Of a DNA stretch of 64,000 nucleotides, positions 33,890-41,756 are shown piece after piece. Below the pieces are notes generated by a model, which was given only the letters and a program-made list of their open reading frames with translations, was not told where the DNA came from and did not search any database. Source of the stretch: Moritella marina ATCC 15381 (GTDB lineage: Bacteria; Pseudomonadota; Gammaproteobacteria; Enterobacterales; Moritellaceae); assembly GCF_008931805.1 (NCBI RefSeq), contig NZ_CP044399.1:2294001-2358000 (forward strand), given 5' to 3'. A program made the position numbers and the translations under genes. Position 1 is the first letter of the stretch; each line of letters starts with the position of its first letter.

Positions 33890-34840
33890 TTACAATGTTA
33901 TTTCAATTGTATTTGCCGATTCATTTAATAGTGAATTGAGCAGTCCGGTATTATCAATAAAGTAATTGGAAAAGTTATTAGCGGCATCCATCATTGCTGA
34001 TTTATATGAACCTGAACTTTGTCCTTTAAATTTAATCACTTTACTGACAAGTGCTGGTTGGCCAATATCGATTTGCATCACAACATTGGCAACTGTCTTA
34101 CCCGTGCGTTCGGTTTTAGACCTAAATCGAACCGGCGTACAGTCTTTATCATCTTTCAATACAAATTGACTCGACTGAATAGCACTTTCAATTGATGGTA
34201 AGTAAATTTTATCCGCCATACGATCATTACTTTTTTTGACATTAAAACAAGCAGATCCAATGAATGCATTTTGCTTCGTCAAAAGTACTTCAATATCGCG
34301 ATGATAATTGCTAGCTTTAGTCGATGAAGACGCAACTGAACTTGCTCGTTTAGCAGATAAATCTAACTTGCTTTTATTGGCCAGCAAGAATAAATAATCA
34401 TTCAAATCAATTTTTTGCTTACTTAATATGTGACCAAACGGTTTAAGGGCAATATTAAGGTTATCTTCATACAAAGCAATAACCTCACTTTTTGATACTT
34501 TACCTATTGCGTAAGAGACCCCTTCTTGCGTTACCATCTCTACCCAGGTGATATGAGGTAATAATACGTCCTCACTCGAAATAGCATTTGTTGACAGTGT
34601 TGTGTGTGCCCCCTCAGTGCCAGACGTCATGGCGCGAGAAGATACAGAGCTAGTTACATTCGAATTAAGCGTACGGGCAATCGATGAAATTGCCCCCTGC
34701 TTGGCTTTTGTTATATCTTCGCCTAATCCAACACCGATAATATAGCCTTCCTGACTCGGCGGGTTTTCTGCCCAATCAGGCGCTGCAAAAGCAGGTTTGT
34801 AAATGAAGGTTAATACTATAAGTAATAAATAGTGCTTCAT
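33890..34840 (-). CDS. LPP20-like periplasmic protein (envelope operon gene 7)
   Basis: 316-residue exported protein with a type I signal peptide (residues 1-19, ending AFAAP). The mature start PDWAENPPSQEGYIIGVGLG followed by KAKQGAISSIARTLNS is the LPP20-domain signature (W-x-NPP, G-x-G, Ala-rich helix). The C-terminal half (Ser-rich, then an RTGKTVANVVMQIDIG segment) is not recognised. It has no lipobox, unlike the lipoproteins of the same operon. The start ATG directly follows the stop of the lytic transglycosylase gene (TAAATG). It is the last gene of the seven-gene operon, converging with modC 20 bases away. Confidence 0.72.
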   Translation of the reverse strand: MKHYLLLIVLTFIYKPAFAAPDWAENPPSQEGYIIGVGLGEDITKAKQGAISSIARTLNSNVTSSVSSRAMTSGTEGAHTTLSTNAISSEDVLLPHITWVEMVTQEGVSYAIGKVSKSEVIALYEDNLNIALKPFGHILSKQKIDLNDYLFLLANKSKLDLSAKRASSVASSSTKASNYHRDIEVLLTKQNAFIGSACFNVKKSNDRMADKIYLPSIESAIQSSQFVLKDDKDCTPVRFRSKTERTGKTVANVVMQIDIGQPALVSKVIKFKGQSSGSYKSAMMDAANNFSNYFIDNTGLLNSLLNESANTIEITL

Positions 34841-35989
34841 TTAGATATTACTCACAGCTAGCATTTTTTTATAAAACTGTTGCTTAGCATATACTTTCTT
34901 TAAATAATTTCGTGTTTCAGCCGCTGGAAAGTCGTTAACTAGTGATAAATACACAGCTTCGGGTTCTAATGTATTCGCTTTTGTAGCTAAAGCGGATAAT
35001 GATGTTTTATCCGTGAAGTGTCTTGCTACTGCACCAATCCCACCGTTGTAAGCTGAAATAGCTAAATAAGTACGAATTTCAGGGTTTTTCACCTTACGTA
35101 AATAATGCGCTTGTAAAATATTAAGGTAGCCAGTACCAATATCAATATTGAACTCAGGGTTAAATAGCACTTCAGCCGGTAACAATTGCTCTTTGCCTAA
35201 AAATCGCTTAGTCACATCTCGACCTGCTGAGGTAGGTACGACCTGCATTAAACCATAGGCCGGAATATGCGATTGAGCCATAGGGTTAAAGTGACTCTCT
35301 GTATGCATAATAGCTAAAATAAGGTCAGGTTTAACATCCCACTTAGCTGACTTTTCCATCACCGAAGGTAAATAAACTAACCCTTTTTTTGCTACATTAT
35401 CTTTTGGGTAATTCATGCTTACCCGGGTGATCTTCAGCCCATTATTTTGCATTACCGACGATGTCGTTGCCGACTTTGTTAATGCTTCAACATTTACGTC
35501 TGGTAACATTTTATTGTTTGCGACCAATTTACTTGGTTTTTCAGTGGTCACAACTTTGTCTTTTTTATAAGCTTCTGCTGTTGTTTCAGTCTGTAATTCT
35601 GTTAATTGCTTTTGTACAACATCAGCAATATTTTTAGATGTTAAATTATCACCAACAACTTCAACGGTAATCTTACCTGTTTCAAAATTAACCGCTCTTT
35701 TAATAGTATTATCTTGGCTGTACTGCACCCAAGTACTGCGGCTTGTTAATTCTGGGGTATCCCATGTTTTAGCGAGTTCTTGTTTCACTTTATTGAACTG
35801 TGCTAAGTATTCTAGCTTTGAATTTTCGAAAGAATCGATAGAATTTTGTTTTGATTGGTTAAAAGTAGAAAGCATTGCCGCTTTACTTTCCGCAAAACTG
35901 TCTTCTGCTGCCACATTTTGAACTACAGCTAAACTTGTAAACAAGCTCATGCTTAGTACCAATGGTTTTACAAATCTAACCATAGTCAT
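34841..35989 (-). CDS. MltC-like lytic transglycosylase without lipobox (envelope operon gene 6)
   Basis: 382-residue peptidoglycan lytic transglycosylase of family 1C (MltC-like). The N-terminal half resembles the MltC accessory domain (DUF3393: RSTWVQYSQDNTIKRAVNFETGKITVEVVG). The C-terminal SLT domain has the catalytic Glu in ILAIMHTESHFNP, then AYGLMQVVP, NIDIGTGYLNIL and ISAYNGGIGAV. E. coli MltC is an outer-membrane lipoprotein; this protein has a cleavable signal (ending NVAAED) and no lipobox Cys, so it is probably soluble in the periplasm. The gap to the upstream lipoprotein gene is 6 bases. In this operon it may open peptidoglycan for assembly of the envelope structure. Confidence 0.87.
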   Translation of the reverse strand: MTMVRFVKPLVLSMSLFTSLAVVQNVAAEDSFAESKAAMLSTFNQSKQNSIDSFENSKLEYLAQFNKVKQELAKTWDTPELTSRSTWVQYSQDNTIKRAVNFETGKITVEVVGDNLTSKNIADVVQKQLTELQTETTAEAYKKDKVVTTEKPSKLVANNKMLPDVNVEALTKSATTSSVMQNNGLKITRVSMNYPKDNVAKKGLVYLPSVMEKSAKWDVKPDLILAIMHTESHFNPMAQSHIPAYGLMQVVPTSAGRDVTKRFLGKEQLLPAEVLFNPEFNIDIGTGYLNILQAHYLRKVKNPEIRTYLAISAYNGGIGAVARHFTDKTSLSALATKANTLEPEAVYLSLVNDFPAAETRNYLKKVYAKQQFYKKMLAVSNI

Positions 35990-35995
35990 TATTCC

Positions 35996-36595
35996 TTACA
36001 TCTCGCCAAGAGCTTTTGCAATATCATCTGATAATTGCTTATTTGTAGCAGGATTTGTTGTCGAGACTGTCGCAGGTGATTTTTCTTCTACTGCAGCAAT
36101 TACGTTTTCTACATTTTGTTTGAACACATCACGAGGTAGACCGACGTGAACGTAGAAGTAACTATCAGGTCCACGGAATGAGCGAATAATTTCAACGCCT
36201 TCAAGTTGCACATTAGCAATCGCTTCCATTTCAGCTGATGTAGCTGAACTTGCACCAGCAGCACCGTCAACACCTAAAGTACCGACTTTACTCTTCACTT
36301 TTGAGATTATTTCAGTTTTCACTTGGTCTGCTAATTCTTTTTTAGCTTGTAAGATTGCGAGGTTTTTCTGATGTGCAATACCACCAGCAGTGTTACCACT
36401 AAACCCAACAGCTTCGCGGATAAACTCGTCACGGTTAGCATTCGGGTTACAGATCCAGTTTGGCGCTGCCATTTCTGATTTACCGTAGTAGTAACATTCT
36501 GCCGGTTGTGGTTTAGCTTCAACAACAGCTTGTTGCGTCGTTTGACAGCCCGTAAGAGCCAGCATCACTGCTGATAGAGCGAGAATTTTTTTCAT
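35996..36595 (-). CDS. LPP20-domain lipoprotein (envelope operon gene 5)
   Basis: 199-residue lipoprotein. The signal ends in lipobox LTGC (Cys17). The mature part contains PNWICNPNANRDEFIREAVGFSGN followed by an Ala/Lys-rich helix KNLAILQAKKELADQVKTEI, the LPP20 pattern also found in FlgP. It ends IRSFRGPDSYFYVHVGLPRDVFKQNV and a polar tail. The lipid anchor, together with the absence of Asp at +2 (Gln follows Cys), predicts the outer membrane. It lies between an 83-base gap upstream and 6 bases downstream to the transglycosylase gene. Confidence 0.78.
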   Translation of the reverse strand: MKKILALSAVMLALTGCQTTQQAVVEAKPQPAECYYYGKSEMAAPNWICNPNANRDEFIREAVGFSGNTAGGIAHQKNLAILQAKKELADQVKTEIISKVKSKVGTLGVDGAAGASSATSAEMEAIANVQLEGVEIIRSFRGPDSYFYVHVGLPRDVFKQNVENVIAAVEEKSPATVSTTNPATNKQLSDDIAKALGEM

Positions 36596-36678
36596 TTTTA
36601 TTCCTTGTTATTTTTATTGTATTTTTTATAAAAAACAAACAGTATCACTGCCGATTCTGTTATTACGATTTAATGTAA

Positions 36679-38091
36679 TTAGAAGTCATCCATATCTAGC
36701 TCTAAAGTACTTTCATAAGCCCCTGAATTTTCTTCGGCTGCTTTAGTGGCTGATAAAACTTGAGCTGTATTAGTAGGTACCTTACCAGCACGAATTTGAC
36801 GAGCTGCTTTATCTGACTCAGGAGACCAAACTTTCACTTCACCTAGAATCATTTGCTGTAGGTTAGATGGGTGCATCATCATCCAAGTGTGGATAGTCTT
36901 AATACCTGCCGCATTATTAAGGTTTGCTGCCGTTTTCATCGTTTGATTAATTTCGTTAATGGTTTTCTCTAGCGTTTTTTGATCACGCTCTATTGATCCA
37001 TCAGCGTTACTTTTAACCGTTTCAAACTGAGAAGTAACAACACCTGATTTAGTCGCGTTTTTATACTGCCCATTCATGTTGTATAGCTCAGCAAAATTTG
37101 CGAAGGCATTATTAGAAGCATGTGGTTTCGCAAATTTTGCTTTACTGCGTAACTGCTTTTTCGTGCCGTAACCCTTAATCGGAAATTGACCAAAAGAAAC
37201 TAACATTGGCATGCCATTAGTGTCATACATAAGTTTGATACCCTGTTCGAAGATTAATTTATCTTCGTTTTCAACAACCCAACTATTAATGTCAATACCT
37301 TTAGCTATTTTTGCTGGATCTGCAGCAATATTACCGCGTGAATCAAGTAATGATTGAACACGATCTCGCATTTTGGGAGACACAAGCGTCAGCACAGCAA
37401 CAACCGTATTACCGTGTACATCAGTTGCTTCAAATGTACGCTTAACGGTCATACCCGAAAGATCGCCGTAAGCAGTTACTTTCGTTTTGGTTGCAATAAA
37501 ATTACGCATCATTAATTTACGTTTTTCAACTGGCGCGGCATTATATTGAGCTGGATCGACACCAAGCTCATTGAGTGCCACATCTAACTTACCATTTGCT
37601 AGTGCGACGGCTTTATCCAGCATTTCTTCAAAGGCGTTGCCAGCTTTATTTAAATCTGCTTTGGTAATTTCAGGAGCATCATCAGTATTAAATAATTTAT
37701 TCAGAGTTTCTGTTTGAATACTTACATTAATACTCGATACATAGCCCGCACGTACTTCAGACATTGCTTTAGTGTATGCAACTGCACGTGAAGCGCCCCA
37801 ATTTTGAGATGCTGTAGTATCGTTAACTTCCTGAATTGAAAGACCAACTGTCACGATATGCTTCTTACCCGCTTTAGCCAACGCCTTTTCTAGTTTATGT
37901 TTATAGCTATTCGACATGCCAACGACATGCTCATAAGCATCTTGGATCCCAGGTGTTGGAGACTCTTGTAACTGTGGTTGTTCCACGTCAGCAGGTTGGA
38001 CAACATTAGGTGTCACTACATTTGCAGAAACGGCTGTAGTTAACGCTGATAGCGTTAATATTTGTAATAATTTTTTCATCACTGTTCTCAT
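36679..38091 (-). CDS. Uncharacterised exported protein (envelope operon gene 4)
   Basis: 470-residue exported protein with a signal peptide (about residues 5-24, ending VSAN). It is not confidently assigned to a family; I have a weak memory of a DUF6844 label for such proteins. The segment HIVTVGLSIQEVNDTTASQNWGASRAVAYTKAM looks like another LPP20/FlgT-type module. The C-terminal part is helical with many Asn and Gln residues. The ATG at 38091 follows CGGAACTTTA; an internal ATG at 38079 is also possible. It sits 36 bases after the FlgT-like gene and is probably part of the same envelope complex. Confidence 0.68.
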   Translation of the reverse strand: MRTVMKKLLQILTLSALTTAVSANVVTPNVVQPADVEQPQLQESPTPGIQDAYEHVVGMSNSYKHKLEKALAKAGKKHIVTVGLSIQEVNDTTASQNWGASRAVAYTKAMSEVRAGYVSSINVSIQTETLNKLFNTDDAPEITKADLNKAGNAFEEMLDKAVALANGKLDVALNELGVDPAQYNAAPVEKRKLMMRNFIATKTKVTAYGDLSGMTVKRTFEATDVHGNTVVAVLTLVSPKMRDRVQSLLDSRGNIAADPAKIAKGIDINSWVVENEDKLIFEQGIKLMYDTNGMPMLVSFGQFPIKGYGTKKQLRSKAKFAKPHASNNAFANFAELYNMNGQYKNATKSGVVTSQFETVKSNADGSIERDQKTLEKTINEINQTMKTAANLNNAAGIKTIHTWMMMHPSNLQQMILGEVKVWSPESDKAARQIRAGKVPTNTAQVLSATKAAEENSGAYESTLELDMDDF

Positions 38092-38127
38092 TAAAGTTCC
38101 GTGGTTAAAATAGGGTAAACCGCTCGA

Positions 38128-39672
38128 TTAACTTCTTACCATATTAAAATATGCTGAACGCGGATCCTTCTTTTCCATATGTGGACGTCGGCCTTTACCC
38201 TGTGTTTTAAAAGTACGATATATCTCTTGTAAACCTTCGTCGAAAGCTTCACTAAGCGGTCCCGAAAAGCGGTAGTTCAAAGTCATCTTTTTACCTGTTT
38301 TATCCCAATCCCAAGATTCAACACTACCTGCAGTACCGTTGTTTAAAACGTGTTTAAAAATATCAACATCGGTACGTTTTGCATTTTTTAAGACTATTTG
38401 ATAAACAGTGCCTTTTTCAGCATTTTTTGCCAAAGATTGAATAACTTCGATGCCAAGTTTGCTTTGCATTTGTTTATACGCAACATGCTCTGAAACTTGT
38501 TTAGCGCGACTCATTGGCTTAACGTAGATCCGCGTCTTGATAGGTTCATTGATAACAGTTAATAAAATGTCACCGCTATTATTGTCTTTTAGCGTCACTG
38601 TTAACTCTGTTTCAATACCTTTACTGCCTTTGTGGTCTTCAACCGCACGCTGACTTTGCTTTAAAGAGAAGGAGTGAGTCGCTTTCGTTTTTCCATCATT
38701 AATAGAAAAACCAAGTCGCTCTAATTCATCAGTGATCCAGGCTGATTTTGATTTATTATCTGAGCTGACCGTAAATATTGGATTACCTAGTACATTGAGA
38801 TAAAAGTTAACATCATTTAATAATTTCCCAGAATTAACCTCAGCCATTAAAATGACGTAATAGCTACCGCGTTCAATATCTTCATCTAAGATTTCGTATT
38901 CATTGACATAGCCTTCTGTTTTCGTGGACAGCGCCAATGTCAATGCATCATTAAATGTACCAGACTTGCCTTGTAACATGACACCTTGAGCCTGTTGAAC
39001 CGCGTTACGAATGGCGTCCTGTAATGCTTGTTCTCGTGCTTTTTGTTCACCCACAGTCATTGATGCCAAACCTTTCGCTTCAACAGAAGAAGATGCGTTA
39101 TTAAAGTCAGCAATACTTTGATTACCAGCATCTGTCGATATGATGATAGTGTTACCACTGCCATTCAAATTACCGGATGTAGATTGAAGCATATTTACAT
39201 TTTTGATATCTGACTGCGCAATACTAATCGCAACAAAATAGTCACCGTCATATTTGCCTTTTTTCAACATTTTAGCCGCTGATAATTGCCCCTTAAAGCC
39301 AACATTGACAACCTCTAAAAAAGACTCTTTAGAAAAATCACTGTTATTATTACCTTCTGAAACAGTAACATGGCTCATAGAGGAGCTAGTGCTACCACTC
39401 ATCGTTACGCCATTAATCATTTCGGTTAACTGGCGCAAAGCATTTATTCTCGCTTCTTCATAACCTTTTGCTTCTGAAGAACGACTCGATGTGCCCATTG
39501 CTACAACGTAATACCCATCAAGCTTGTTGATACCAGAGCGCGTACCGCCACCACTATCAAGTAATGAAAACACGTCATCCATTGGATCGCCAGCTATCGC
39601 TGTTGAGGAAGCGAAAAGCAACGCAGTTGCTATCGCTAAGCTTGAATAGATATTACGAAGTAGTTTTTTCAT
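38128..39672 (-). CDS. FlgT/LPP20-repeat exported protein (envelope operon gene 3)
   Basis: 514-residue exported protein with a signal peptide (residues 1-27, ending AIAGD). Two LPP20/FlgT_N-like units are visible: GYYVVAMGTSSRSSEAKG with AR..AL helices (about residues 52-95), and KAREQALQDAIRNAVQQAQG (about 210-230) followed by EGYVNEYEILDEDIERGSYYV, which is close to the flagellar H-ring protein FlgT N-terminal pattern. The rest is beta-rich and unassigned. The stop of the CsgG-like gene lies 5 bases before its ATG. No other flagellar genes are in the window, so a flagellar role is doubtful. Confidence 0.75.
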   Translation of the reverse strand: MKKLLRNIYSSLAIATALLFASSTAIAGDPMDDVFSLLDSGGGTRSGINKLDGYYVVAMGTSSRSSEAKGYEEARINALRQLTEMINGVTMSGSTSSSMSHVTVSEGNNNSDFSKESFLEVVNVGFKGQLSAAKMLKKGKYDGDYFVAISIAQSDIKNVNMLQSTSGNLNGSGNTIIISTDAGNQSIADFNNASSSVEAKGLASMTVGEQKAREQALQDAIRNAVQQAQGVMLQGKSGTFNDALTLALSTKTEGYVNEYEILDEDIERGSYYVILMAEVNSGKLLNDVNFYLNVLGNPIFTVSSDNKSKSAWITDELERLGFSINDGKTKATHSFSLKQSQRAVEDHKGSKGIETELTVTLKDNNSGDILLTVINEPIKTRIYVKPMSRAKQVSEHVAYKQMQSKLGIEVIQSLAKNAEKGTVYQIVLKNAKRTDVDIFKHVLNNGTAGSVESWDWDKTGKKMTLNYRFSGPLSEAFDEGLQEIYRTFKTQGKGRRPHMEKKDPRSAYFNMVRS

Positions 39673-39677
39673 ACGTG

Positions 39678-40697
39678 TTATAACTTCCAGTTTTCTGGTG
39701 TGCCAACAGATACCGCGTAAATCTTATTACGTTTGAGGTATTCTTTACCCATCGCCTCAAGCTTTTTCTTCACTTGTTCAGCATCGGCATCATCTTCTTT
39801 CCAAATAAACATAACACCAGAACCTGAGTCGCCTTTTGGCGTCACTTCACCCGATGCGATAGGAATATCTAGGCCATCATCGCTTAGGAACAGCACAACA
39901 GGTTGCTTCACAGCAAAACCTTGATTAATACCAGCGTTGATAGCGAATCGGCCATTTCGAAAATTGGTGACTCGGCCACCTACAGGATAATAATCAATAG
40001 TGCGGTTAACTAAGACTTGAATCGCTTTTTGTGCAGCTTCTTTATAAGCTTCTTGCAGTTCGTTTTGGTCTCTATAATCAAAACCAGCTAAGAATTTACC
40101 TTCAATAGCAAAGTATCTTTTGGCAGGCATATTATGACGGATAGGTTCAAATGCATGTACGATTTCACCCGTAGTAGGGTTAACCACTTTTGTTGTTACT
40201 AAGCTGCGAAATATGATCTGATTATGATCAGACAGTTTTTTGATAACCGTACCAAGCGCGATCGAGGTTTCAAATACAAAGTCAGGATTGATTTTTTCTC
40301 CGCGCTGAATTGCTCCTTTATCTACAGTATTCTCAGCTTGAAAAGCAATTTCATAATCACATGAGCTACAGTTACGCGTTAATACGTCATAACGCTTAGT
40401 TCTTGATAATTCATTCTCTAATAATTTGGCGATTATACTATTTTCAATATTCGTCACTTCCGCATTTTTTTCGAATTTTATTCGATCAACATAAGCAGCA
40501 ATACGCATTTTGTTAAATGCTTTTACATCGTAATTACTTGGTAATTCGATATTCTCACTTTCAAACAATGCTTCTCGACTAACTGTACTAATTTGCGAAT
40601 TCGCATCAAGATCTGCTTGTGAATTAATTTTCAAATTAGTCGTTCCACAACCTGACATCAGGATTCCGGTTAATACGACTATAAGTATTTTTTTCAT
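39678..40697 (-). CDS. CsgG/HfaB-like outer-membrane lipoprotein (envelope operon gene 2)
   Basis: 339-residue lipoprotein with lipobox MSGC (Cys17). Most of the chain fits the CsgG/HfaB family (curli secretion channel and holdfast anchor), for example MRIAAYVDRIKFEKN, LLENELSRTKRYDVLTR, DFVFETSIALGTVIK and VVNPTTGEIVHAFEPIRH. The C-terminus (GGRVTNFRNGRFAINAGINQ, then QPVVLFLSDDG) resembles FlgT C-terminal or SH3-like modules. No curlin genes (csgA/B/E/F) are nearby. The start is taken at 40697: the longer frame, from 40739, would begin inside a terminator hairpin and lacks a signal sequence. If it forms a CsgG-type ring, it would be the pore of this operon. Confidence 0.8.
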   Translation of the reverse strand: MKKILIVVLTGILMSGCGTTNLKINSQADLDANSQISTVSREALFESENIELPSNYDVKAFNKMRIAAYVDRIKFEKNAEVTNIENSIIAKLLENELSRTKRYDVLTRNCSSCDYEIAFQAENTVDKGAIQRGEKINPDFVFETSIALGTVIKKLSDHNQIIFRSLVTTKVVNPTTGEIVHAFEPIRHNMPAKRYFAIEGKFLAGFDYRDQNELQEAYKEAAQKAIQVLVNRTIDYYPVGGRVTNFRNGRFAINAGINQGFAVKQPVVLFLSDDGLDIPIASGEVTPKGDSGSGVMFIWKEDDADAEQVKKKLEAMGKEYLKRNKIYAVSVGTPENWKL

Positions 40698-40716
40698 ACA
40701 TTCTCTTCTATTTACA

Positions 40717-40745
40717 CAAAAAAGCCGATGAGTAATCATCGGCTT
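40717..40745 (-). terminator. Strong internal terminator between operon genes 1 and 2
   Basis: Perfect 10-bp stem AAGCCGATGA (40722-40731)/TCATCGGCTT (40736-40745), loop GTAA, followed on the minus strand by TTTTTTG. It lies between the first lipoprotein gene and the CsgG-like gene. Confidence 0.87.
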
Positions 40746-40762
40746 ATATTACTTAATAAAAC

Positions 40763-41428
40763 TTATTCAGCATTGCTCATAGCAGAAATAACTTGATAAT
40801 TATTGTAGGCAGAAACAACAGTATCATTCATGTAGAGTAACTGGTCTGTCGTGTGGGATAGGCGATCTTTTTCTGCCATCATGTCTGAAAAATCAACGCT
40901 TGTAATTAATGCTGTAGTATCTAATTGATAAAATGTTTCAGAGTTAGCAAGCACAACTACGGCAACATCTTTTAAACCAACAAGTAATTCTTGGCTAACT
41001 GATGACGCTTTGAAATCTTCAATGATTTTTTTGTCTTCAGCTGATAGTGCAGCATTAATTACTGCTATATCTTCATCATTTTTAGCATTGCCAATTGCTG
41101 CAAAATAACTACCAACAACTGGCGTATTTATCATTTCTTCTGAAAAACGCTCATAAACAGGCTTCGCAGTTAAAAATGTGGCATTAACAACGGTTCTAAT
41201 ATTTTCTAATTCTTCGACTTTAGATTCTTGGTAACCAGTATTAACGGTATTAGTTTTTTTTGTGCCTTCCGCCGTTAAGACTTCATATGAAGTTCCCTTC
41301 ATTGCAGATTCTAAATAAAGATCTTGACCTTCTTCTTGAAGTTCAACATAAGATGCAGAACCGCCAGTAGTAATACAACCAGATAAAAGTGATGCGAAAA
41401 TAGTTACAGCCAAGATTGTTTTTTTCAT
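40763..41428 (-). CDS. Uncharacterised lipoprotein (envelope operon gene 1)
   Basis: 221-residue lipoprotein with lipobox LSGC (Cys18; Ile at +2 predicts the outer membrane). The mature protein is largely helical and acidic; no family is recognised. It includes EELENIRTVVNATFLTAKPVYERFSEEM and a C-terminal helical stretch. A good ribosome-binding site (AAGGGTTC) precedes the ATG. It heads the operon and is followed by a strong terminator, so it is probably made in larger amounts than the six downstream products, which fits a partner or plug for a CsgG-type pore. Confidence 0.72.
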   Translation of the reverse strand: MKKTILAVTIFASLLSGCITTGGSASYVELQEEGQDLYLESAMKGTSYEVLTAEGTKKTNTVNTGYQESKVEELENIRTVVNATFLTAKPVYERFSEEMINTPVVGSYFAAIGNAKNDEDIAVINAALSAEDKKIIEDFKASSVSQELLVGLKDVAVVVLANSETFYQLDTTALITSVDFSDMMAEKDRLSHTTDQLLYMNDTVVSAYNNYQVISAMSNAE

Positions 41429-41756
41429 TTTGAACCCTTAAGAGTAAATCAGCATTAAATTAATAATCAGAATGTTTAGTGGGAGACCTGCTTTAAAACC
41501 TTTCTTTTAGCTAACAAAGACTTCTAATATAGTTAAGTAGCTTATTGGTTTCTATTATTTACAATAGTTTACAGTTGTTTACAGTTACTAATCAATCAAC
41601 CTTATTAAGCAATCAATTAACATCCAAGGTTCATCACACTACCCATAAAGTAGGCATCTTATTCTAATTAAATGTAGGTAGATTATCATTTGATAGTTTT
41701 GATATGTAAAAAGACTGGTTAGCATCAATATTTAAGGGGTAACTGGCCGACCTTTA
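41429..41756 (-). promoter_or_regulatory. Upstream region of the envelope operon
   Basis: 328 bases without a credible gene, between two minus-strand genes. It holds the presumed operon promoter and a threefold 10-base repeat at 41558-41587 (listed separately). No clear terminator for the upstream gene was seen. Confidence 0.5.
41558..41587. repeat. Three 10-base phased TTTACA repeats
   Basis: TTTACAATAG, TTTACAGTTG and TTTACAGTTA follow each other at 41558, 41568 and 41578, one helical turn apart, about 130-160 bases upstream of the envelope operon start. Probably a regulator-binding array. Confidence 0.6.

Follow-up and report, generated by a model that had tools for sequence, protein, structure and literature searches.

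A seven-gene envelope operon of Moritella marina that may encode an accessory periplasmic ring related to the flagellar H-ring

A stretch of 64,000 nucleotides from Moritella marina ATCC 15381 (contig NZ_CP044399.1, positions 2,294,001 to 2,358,000 of the forward strand; hereafter the window) contains an operon of seven genes for exported proteins, which we call g1 to g7 in the order of transcription. Our favoured reading, which we hold at somewhat less than an even chance, is that the operon encodes an accessory ring or disk in the periplasm, anchored to the outer membrane, that would be a paralogue of the flagellar H-ring and would work apart from the flagellum. The evidence that carries this reading comprises the domains found in g3, g5, and g7, the maintenance of the gene set in other genera, and the presence of the genome's own H-ring and curli-type genes at other loci. 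The genes and sites concerned are, in window positions:

40763..41428, minus strand: g1, the first gene, a lipoprotein of 221 residues with Ile after the lipobox Cys; orthologues are found in the near loci described below
40722..40745, minus strand: a hairpin between g1 and g2 that resembles an intrinsic terminator, with ten pairs and a T-run
39678..40697, minus strand: g2, a lipoprotein of 339 residues with a putative, remote CsgG/LpoB-type domain; its open reading frame (ORF) is listed from 40739
38128..39672, minus strand: g3, a periplasmic protein of 514 residues with FlgT_N at residues 197-279 and probably a second copy ahead of it
36679..38091, minus strand: g4, a DUF6844 protein of 470 residues ending in Asp-Asp-Phe, which occupies the place of two genes, X and Y, in orthologous operons
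35996..36595, minus strand: g5, an LPP20-family lipoprotein of 199 residues with a lipobox
34841..35989, minus strand: g6, a secreted lytic transglycosylase of 382 residues with SLT and MltC_N domains and Glu231 as candidate catalytic residue
33890..34840, minus strand: g7, a periplasmic protein of 316 residues with an LPP20 domain at residues 21-90
41558..41583, minus strand: a TGTAAA triple with a spacing of 10 bases, located upstream of g1, a candidate regulator site

Pfam searches of the seven products bore out what an earlier note, made from the sequence alone, had expected, namely at least three LPP20- or FlgT_N-like genes and one lytic transglycosylase. FlgT_N was found in g3 (35.2 bits, cut-off 28.8), LPP20 (PF02169) in g5 and g7 (29.0 and 31.6 bits, cut-off 25.9), and SLT together with MltC_N in g6 (83.9 bits, cut-off 21.3, and 24.3 bits, cut-off 22.6), while g4 was assigned to DUF6844 (PF20891) with 94.5 bits (cut-off 27). 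The FlgP encoded elsewhere in this genome likewise belongs to LPP20, which supports a relationship to the H-ring. Three of the seven g5 and g7 orthologues scanned passed the LPP20 cut-off, i.e., two of three for g5 (24.6-28.0 bits) and one of four for g7 (20.6-27.3 bits). In g6, Glu231 and a GLMQ motif are in place, which we take to be the SLT signature; the protein resembles MltC in its two domains, but scores 182.5 bits against the NCBIfam MltC equivalog (cut-off 375) and has no lipobox. No meaningful Pfam match was obtained for g1, and g2 gave nothing usable, with no match to CsgG (PF03783) up to an E-value of 1 and none to LpoB. Among the seven genes, FlgT_M, FlgT_C, and FlgO had no Pfam match, curlin, CsgE, and CsgF had none in Pfam or NCBIfam, and NCBIfam named no protein over cut-off. 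Phage-defence or phage genes were considered and rejected, as PADLOC returned no matches for nine proteins and PHROGs two weak ones for eight proteins, both in the leader region of g5.

The seven minus-strand ORFs span 33890-41428 and are separated by 65, 5, 36, 83, 6, and 0 bases from g1 to g7, in agreement with the earlier note. The first of these values depends on the start of g2: a lipobox follows Met15 of the longer ORF, so that 40697 is a more likely start than 40739, and the g1-g2 gap therefore amounts to 65 bases. Export signals were recognised by eye on all seven proteins, with lipoboxes in g1, g2, and g5 and ordinary signal peptides in g3, g4, g6, and g7, as had likewise been noted before. 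Under the Lol rule, which concerns the residue after the lipobox Cys, the Ile, Gly, and Gln found at this position in g1, g2, and g5, respectively, suggest sorting to the outer membrane. The immediate neighbours of the operon are a DUF6933 gene and genes that, judged from their sequences, are probably modABC and adenosine-deaminase-like; no curli or flagellar gene is among them. The TGTAAA triple recurs upstream of the operon of M. dasanensis. Regarding other regulatory elements, no convincing sigma or CRP site was found upstream at eight loci in 48 tests, the lowest chance estimate being about 0.04 for one sigma-54-like site at the Enterovibrio locus, and an RNA-family search returned two matches only, both far under the gathering score.

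The genome has dedicated counterparts elsewhere. Its own FlgT, with the N, M, and C domains over cut-off, is clustered with FlgO and FlgP about 208 kb from the operon, and two CsgG genes pass the cut-off, one of curli type about 58 kb away and outside the window, whose neighbours we presume, from their position, to be curli partners, and one in another lipoprotein operon. Because both sets sit at other loci, the operon is neither the known H-ring set of this genome nor its curli set. The earlier suggestion of an H-ring-related envelope set apart from flagellar and curli loci is upheld by these findings and by the retention of the operon as a unit in other genera. Compared with the flagellar H-ring of Vibrio and relatives (FlgO/FlgP/FlgT), the operon is alike in FlgT_N, in the FlgP-family LPP20 proteins, and in its outer-membrane-type lipoproteins, whereas it differs in lacking matches to FlgT_M, FlgT_C, and FlgO, in its separate locus, and in having a lytic transglycosylase and a DUF6844 protein of its own. 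Two further loci of the same genome were recorded. The second CsgG-family gene (L035:6420-8771) shares its operon with genes for three small exported proteins, an arrangement unlike the curli-type locus. Another one-strand envelope operon (L009:9609-13436, about C2:3567608-3571435) encodes an LPP20 protein (173 residues), an LpoB-like lipoprotein (200 residues), a TPR-type lipoprotein (530 residues), and a second LPP20 protein (332 residues).

Conservation of gene order, which the earlier note had proposed as a check, extends over several genera. A scan of named genomes yielded eight loci, in Aliivibrio finisterrensis, Aliivibrio sp. EL58, an uncultured Aliivibrio, Photobacterium aquae, Shewanella sp. 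UCD-KL12, Oceanospirillales XeTr1, an Enterovibrio bin, and M. dasanensis. The order g1-g2-g3-X-Y-g5-g6-g7 is found in M. dasanensis, A. finisterrensis, Aliivibrio sp. EL58, and Enterovibrio; in Photobacterium, g7 is placed between g3 and X, and the contig of the uncultured Aliivibrio covers the operon from within g2 to within g6. The operons of Shewanella, XeTr1, and genome G023 stop after Y, with XeTr1 also lacking g1, and X of Shewanella gave no more than a weak match (23% over 87 residues). As orthologous operons occur in several genera, we regard the arrangement as beyond chance. Within the order, g2 was detected in 9 of 295 genomes, five of them near (46-100% identity) and four distant (22-26%), and within the class in 2 of 369, namely the window's own copy and one match with one internal stop. 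Matches to g3 were obtained in 25 of the 295 genomes, five over the full length and 20 short ones (17.5-24.1 bits) around the FlgT_N region.

The distant group comprises five rearranged operons from four genomes and one Pseudoalteromonas replicon. BLAST identified g2- and g6-like genes in all five, and g1-, g3-, and g7-like genes were assigned partly by position and length. Comparison of near and distant family profiles gave 100 for g6, 99.7 for g2, 99.0 for g7, 96.7 for g3, 96.4 for g1, and 94.9 for g5. In four of the five, the middle of the operon is formed by two other genes, whose best score against X, Y, or DUF6844 is P 17.8, too low for a firm match, and the lytic transglycosylase is kept in all five as well as in the longer near operons. 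A plasmid-borne set was rejected as an explanation: tblastn found one match in 72,556 plasmid records, on the 805-kb Pseudoalteromonas replicon, which is typed as non-mobilizable. The annotation of one relative gives these genes the names hypothetical, LPP20 family lipoprotein, or murein transglycosylase domain-containing protein.

The earlier description of g2 as CsgG-like stands at most as a possible remote superfamily match seen by profile, since Pfam gave no CsgG match. Our profile comparisons used a CsgG set of 31 sequences (L014, L015, and 29 loci, L105-L133, drawn from 39 listed places), a FlgT set of 20 sequences (the genome's own FlgT and 19 of 20 weak FlgT_N loci, L054 having given no ORF), and a near g2 profile of eight sequences. 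Near g2 aligned with the CsgG set at P 95.6 over residues 2-185, leader included, and with non-curli-type CsgG at P 83.8; the combined near and distant g2 sequences, over columns without the leader, reached P 91.6, and the distant group alone P 55. Against the curli-type set alone, near g2 reached P 41 over 43 columns. Several lipoproteins score P 40-74 against the CsgG sets, mostly via the leader, and we regard such values as noise because g1 (P 70.9 over 48 columns) and the TPR lipoprotein (P 49.9 over 27 columns) attain them outside it. Families X, g3, g4, g6, g7, D433, and D250 remained at P <3 against the CsgG sets. Judged by its sequence, g2 is a remote CsgG/LpoB-type relative, if it is related at all.

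These data bear on a first alternative, in which g2 would be a CsgG-type secretion pore in the outer membrane, with g1 or another product as its exported or surface-anchored cargo. Its profile match and lipoprotein nature, the CsgG chains among its structural matches, and the position of g1 as first gene and probably excess product are consistent with such a pore. However, the first hairpin of g2, counted by hand, measures about 19 residues compared to about 29 for the curli-type CsgG of this genome and has no clear transmembrane extension, the match to curli-type CsgG is low, a Pfam match is lacking, and g1 is itself a lipoprotein. A CsgG secretion ring, as put forward in the earlier note, is weakened accordingly, and we consider this explanation the least probable of those weighed here; g2 as a plain CsgG pore was rejected in view of the absent Pfam match and the short hairpin. 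Compared with curli CsgG and holdfast HfaB (for the latter, PMC6707917), g2 shares the lipid anchor and has a possible remote profile match, whereas the operon has no curli-type partners.

The hairpin of g2 has the length of that of an LpoB protein (about 18 residues, likewise counted by hand), which leads to a second alternative: a regulator of cell-wall synthesis or remodelling, in which an LpoB-like outer-membrane lipoprotein complex and the lytic transglycosylase would act on peptidoglycan and no trans-envelope ring would exist. The combined near and distant g2 sequences match the LpoB set at P 93.5 over 71 columns, the operon includes g6, and LpoB proper is present in a DUF6844 module found elsewhere (2 of 2 scanned). 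On the other hand, the sliced middle domain of g2 gives only P 12.2, g2 has no Pfam LpoB match and is larger than LpoB, the activator of penicillin-binding proteins, and FlgT_N together with two LPP20 proteins would be expected in a ring more than in an activator of a synthase. We consider a regulator of this kind improbable, though the strongest of the alternatives.

The ring reading is supported by the profile of g3: domain 2 reaches P 96.1 against FlgT_N, and domain 1 aligns with it in register over 77 columns (P 50), suggesting two FlgT_N copies. AlphaFold2 models of g2 and g3 were built from eight-sequence alignments and searched with Foldseek. The best PDB matches of the low-confidence g3 model were FlgT (3w1e, E 4.5e-8) and the LPHT ring (8z5n, 1.4e-7); for the low-confidence g2 model, they were again FlgT 3w1e and the LPHT ring 8z5n (2.2e-4), with CsgG chains among later matches from 1.0e-2. 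Also in favour of the ring are the profile match of g2 to the CsgG set, the retention of the lytic transglycosylase in related operons, and the recurring hairpin after g1.

Several results weigh against an H-ring paralogue. Both models are poor, with a predicted local distance difference test (pLDDT) of 45 and a predicted template modelling score (pTM) of 0.34 for g2, and a pLDDT of 49.5 and a pTM of 0.26 for g3. The Foldseek matches to FlgT have TM-scores of 0.23 or less and root-mean-square deviations of 13-28, and in view of these TM-scores we regard the FlgT likeness as supportive, not decisive. By profile, g2 gives P 1.6 against FlgT and its middle domain P 0.3 against FlgT_M; its C-terminal part reaches P 32.7 over 31 columns against FlgT_C, a value that drops to 2.0 with near sequences alone. 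Domains 3 and 4 of g3 have no match in the profile comparison (P 5.2 or less for the FlgT domains), and g3 of Aliivibrio and Photobacterium score 20.4 and 21.0 bits for FlgT_N, both under the cut-off. Furthermore, all 15 carriers tested have flagellins, which leaves room for a flagellar accessory role.

This last point favours a third alternative, in which the operon, although located away from the flagellar loci, would supply the flagellar motor with an accessory disk, as do the FlgT_N and LPP20 domains and the three of 15 carriers without FlgT_M over cut-off, in which the operon could replace FlgT. However, in the other 12 carriers a FlgT_M protein of their own passes the cut-off, the operon is present in just two of the 11 genomes in the genus, and no convincing flagellar sigma site precedes it at the eight loci. 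We judge a motor disk to be quite unlikely, somewhat below the cell-wall regulator and above the secretion pore.

The distribution of the operon within the genus is patchy. g2 and g3 are carried by two of its 11 genomes, and the flanking DUF6933 gene is present in seven, with the site empty of the operon in all five non-carriers among them. Matches to g6 with 35-39% identity and one in-frame TAA each were noted in two genomes of the genus (G118:C27:73878-74609 and G144:C13:76784-77380). The operons of the window and of M. dasanensis occupy the same chromosomal site, and the identity between them varies from 34% for g1, 45% for g2, and 64% for g7 to 90% for g3, 96% for g6, and 98% for g5. Between the window and A. 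finisterrensis, g2 is 80% identical, and the window's g4 stands where M. dasanensis has X and Y. Pfam did not recognise Y in any of three proteins scanned; the profile of Y matches that of g4/DUF6844 at P 96.8 over 351 columns, which identifies Y, at the level of sequence profiles, as a remote DUF6844 relative.

DUF6844 proper was detected in 9 of the order's 295 genomes, and in the eight besides the window it is part of a four-gene module. By BLAST clusters, this module includes a TPR-type lipoprotein and an FlgT/CsgG-like gene at 8 of 8 loci and an LpoB-cluster gene at six; among ten members scanned with Pfam, LpoB was named in 2 of 2 and CsgG over cut-off in 5 of 6. The FlgT-like protein of the module matches FlgT at P 97.0 over 316 columns, and the separate domains give 83.6, 3.7, and 3.7. 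The module resembles the operon in combining DUF6844 and an FlgT-like protein with outer-membrane-type lipoproteins, but has LpoB and a TPR lipoprotein and, in the stretches read, no lytic transglycosylase. Identity between the window's g4 and the DUF6844 proteins of the module is 24-32%, and the operon seems to have swapped in a DUF6844 of this kind. In A. finisterrensis (G218), the module and the X+Y form of the operon are present on different contigs (L026 and L062).

Two features are new here, i.e., a conserved hairpin between g1 and g2 and a conserved C-terminal Phe in the DUF6844/Y proteins. The terminator that the earlier note had placed in the 65-base gap recurs, in that a hairpin folded at all eight loci (two of them identical), with stem letters that mostly differ between loci and a T-run in seven, Shewanella being the exception; z-scores range from -2.1 (M. 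dasanensis) to -6.9 against 200 mononucleotide shuffles. Taken overall, the terminator scan was not above chance, with nine terminator-like sites against 6.8 expected. No conserved hairpin was found in the gap before g5 at five loci, and in the distant operons looked at, the g1-like gene is followed directly by the next one. Pilus operons offer a precedent for a hairpin-linked excess of the first product; by this analogy, the conserved hairpin directly after g1 suggests that g1 is made in excess, and g1 is probably the most abundant product of the operon. Among the DUF6844/Y proteins, which are related and thus not 16 independent cases, a C-terminal Phe was found in 16 of 16 and Asp-Phe in 14 of 16, from which we infer that the tail serves docking. 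Another conserved C-terminal Phe belongs to a different family of the distant operons, a gene of about 240 residues before the lytic transglycosylase (L086, L088, and L095), in which three of four proteins end in DLSSYF.

In the proposed ring or disk, g2 and g3 would form an FlgT-like ring under the outer membrane, held by the lipid of g2, to which g5 and g7 would add FlgP-like rings of the LPP20 type. g6 would open the peptidoglycan locally, g4 (or X and Y) would be a periplasmic partner docking via its C-terminal tail, and g1, overproduced owing to the hairpin, would be the abundant subunit. A more elaborate version is less likely than the ring or disk as such, and we put it forward tentatively: a dedicated, non-flagellar trans-envelope ring machine with an FlgT-like ring split over g2 and g3, FlgP-like disks of g5 and g7, its own cutter g6, the over-produced lipoprotein g1, and an exchangeable, specificity-setting DUF6844 or X+Y module docking via the C-terminal Phe tail, which might be spreading among marine gammaproteobacteria as a mosaic cassette. 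In the literature, FlgP, Lpp20, and FlgT are described as having an SHS2-like fold in common, with ring formation going along with an insert in the fold (PMC12222027), and the H-ring as having a role in penetration of the outer membrane (PMC7990780). No such operon was found in the titles and abstract openings of literature on DUF6844, on LPP20 with CsgG and lytic transglycosylase, on the names under which these genes are annotated, or on FlgT- and FlgP-like proteins, a coverage with subscription journals mostly outside.

If the ring or disk reading is true, the H-ring toolkit of FlgT, FlgP, and CsgG-type folds would also build a stand-alone envelope structure, beyond its use as an addition to the flagellum, and the operon would offer a system for studying ring assembly under the outer membrane without a flagellum. 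It would further give DUF6844 its first functional setting, and the exchange between DUF6844 and X+Y, while g5 and g6 stay 96-98% identical, would amount to a natural experiment on interchangeable parts.

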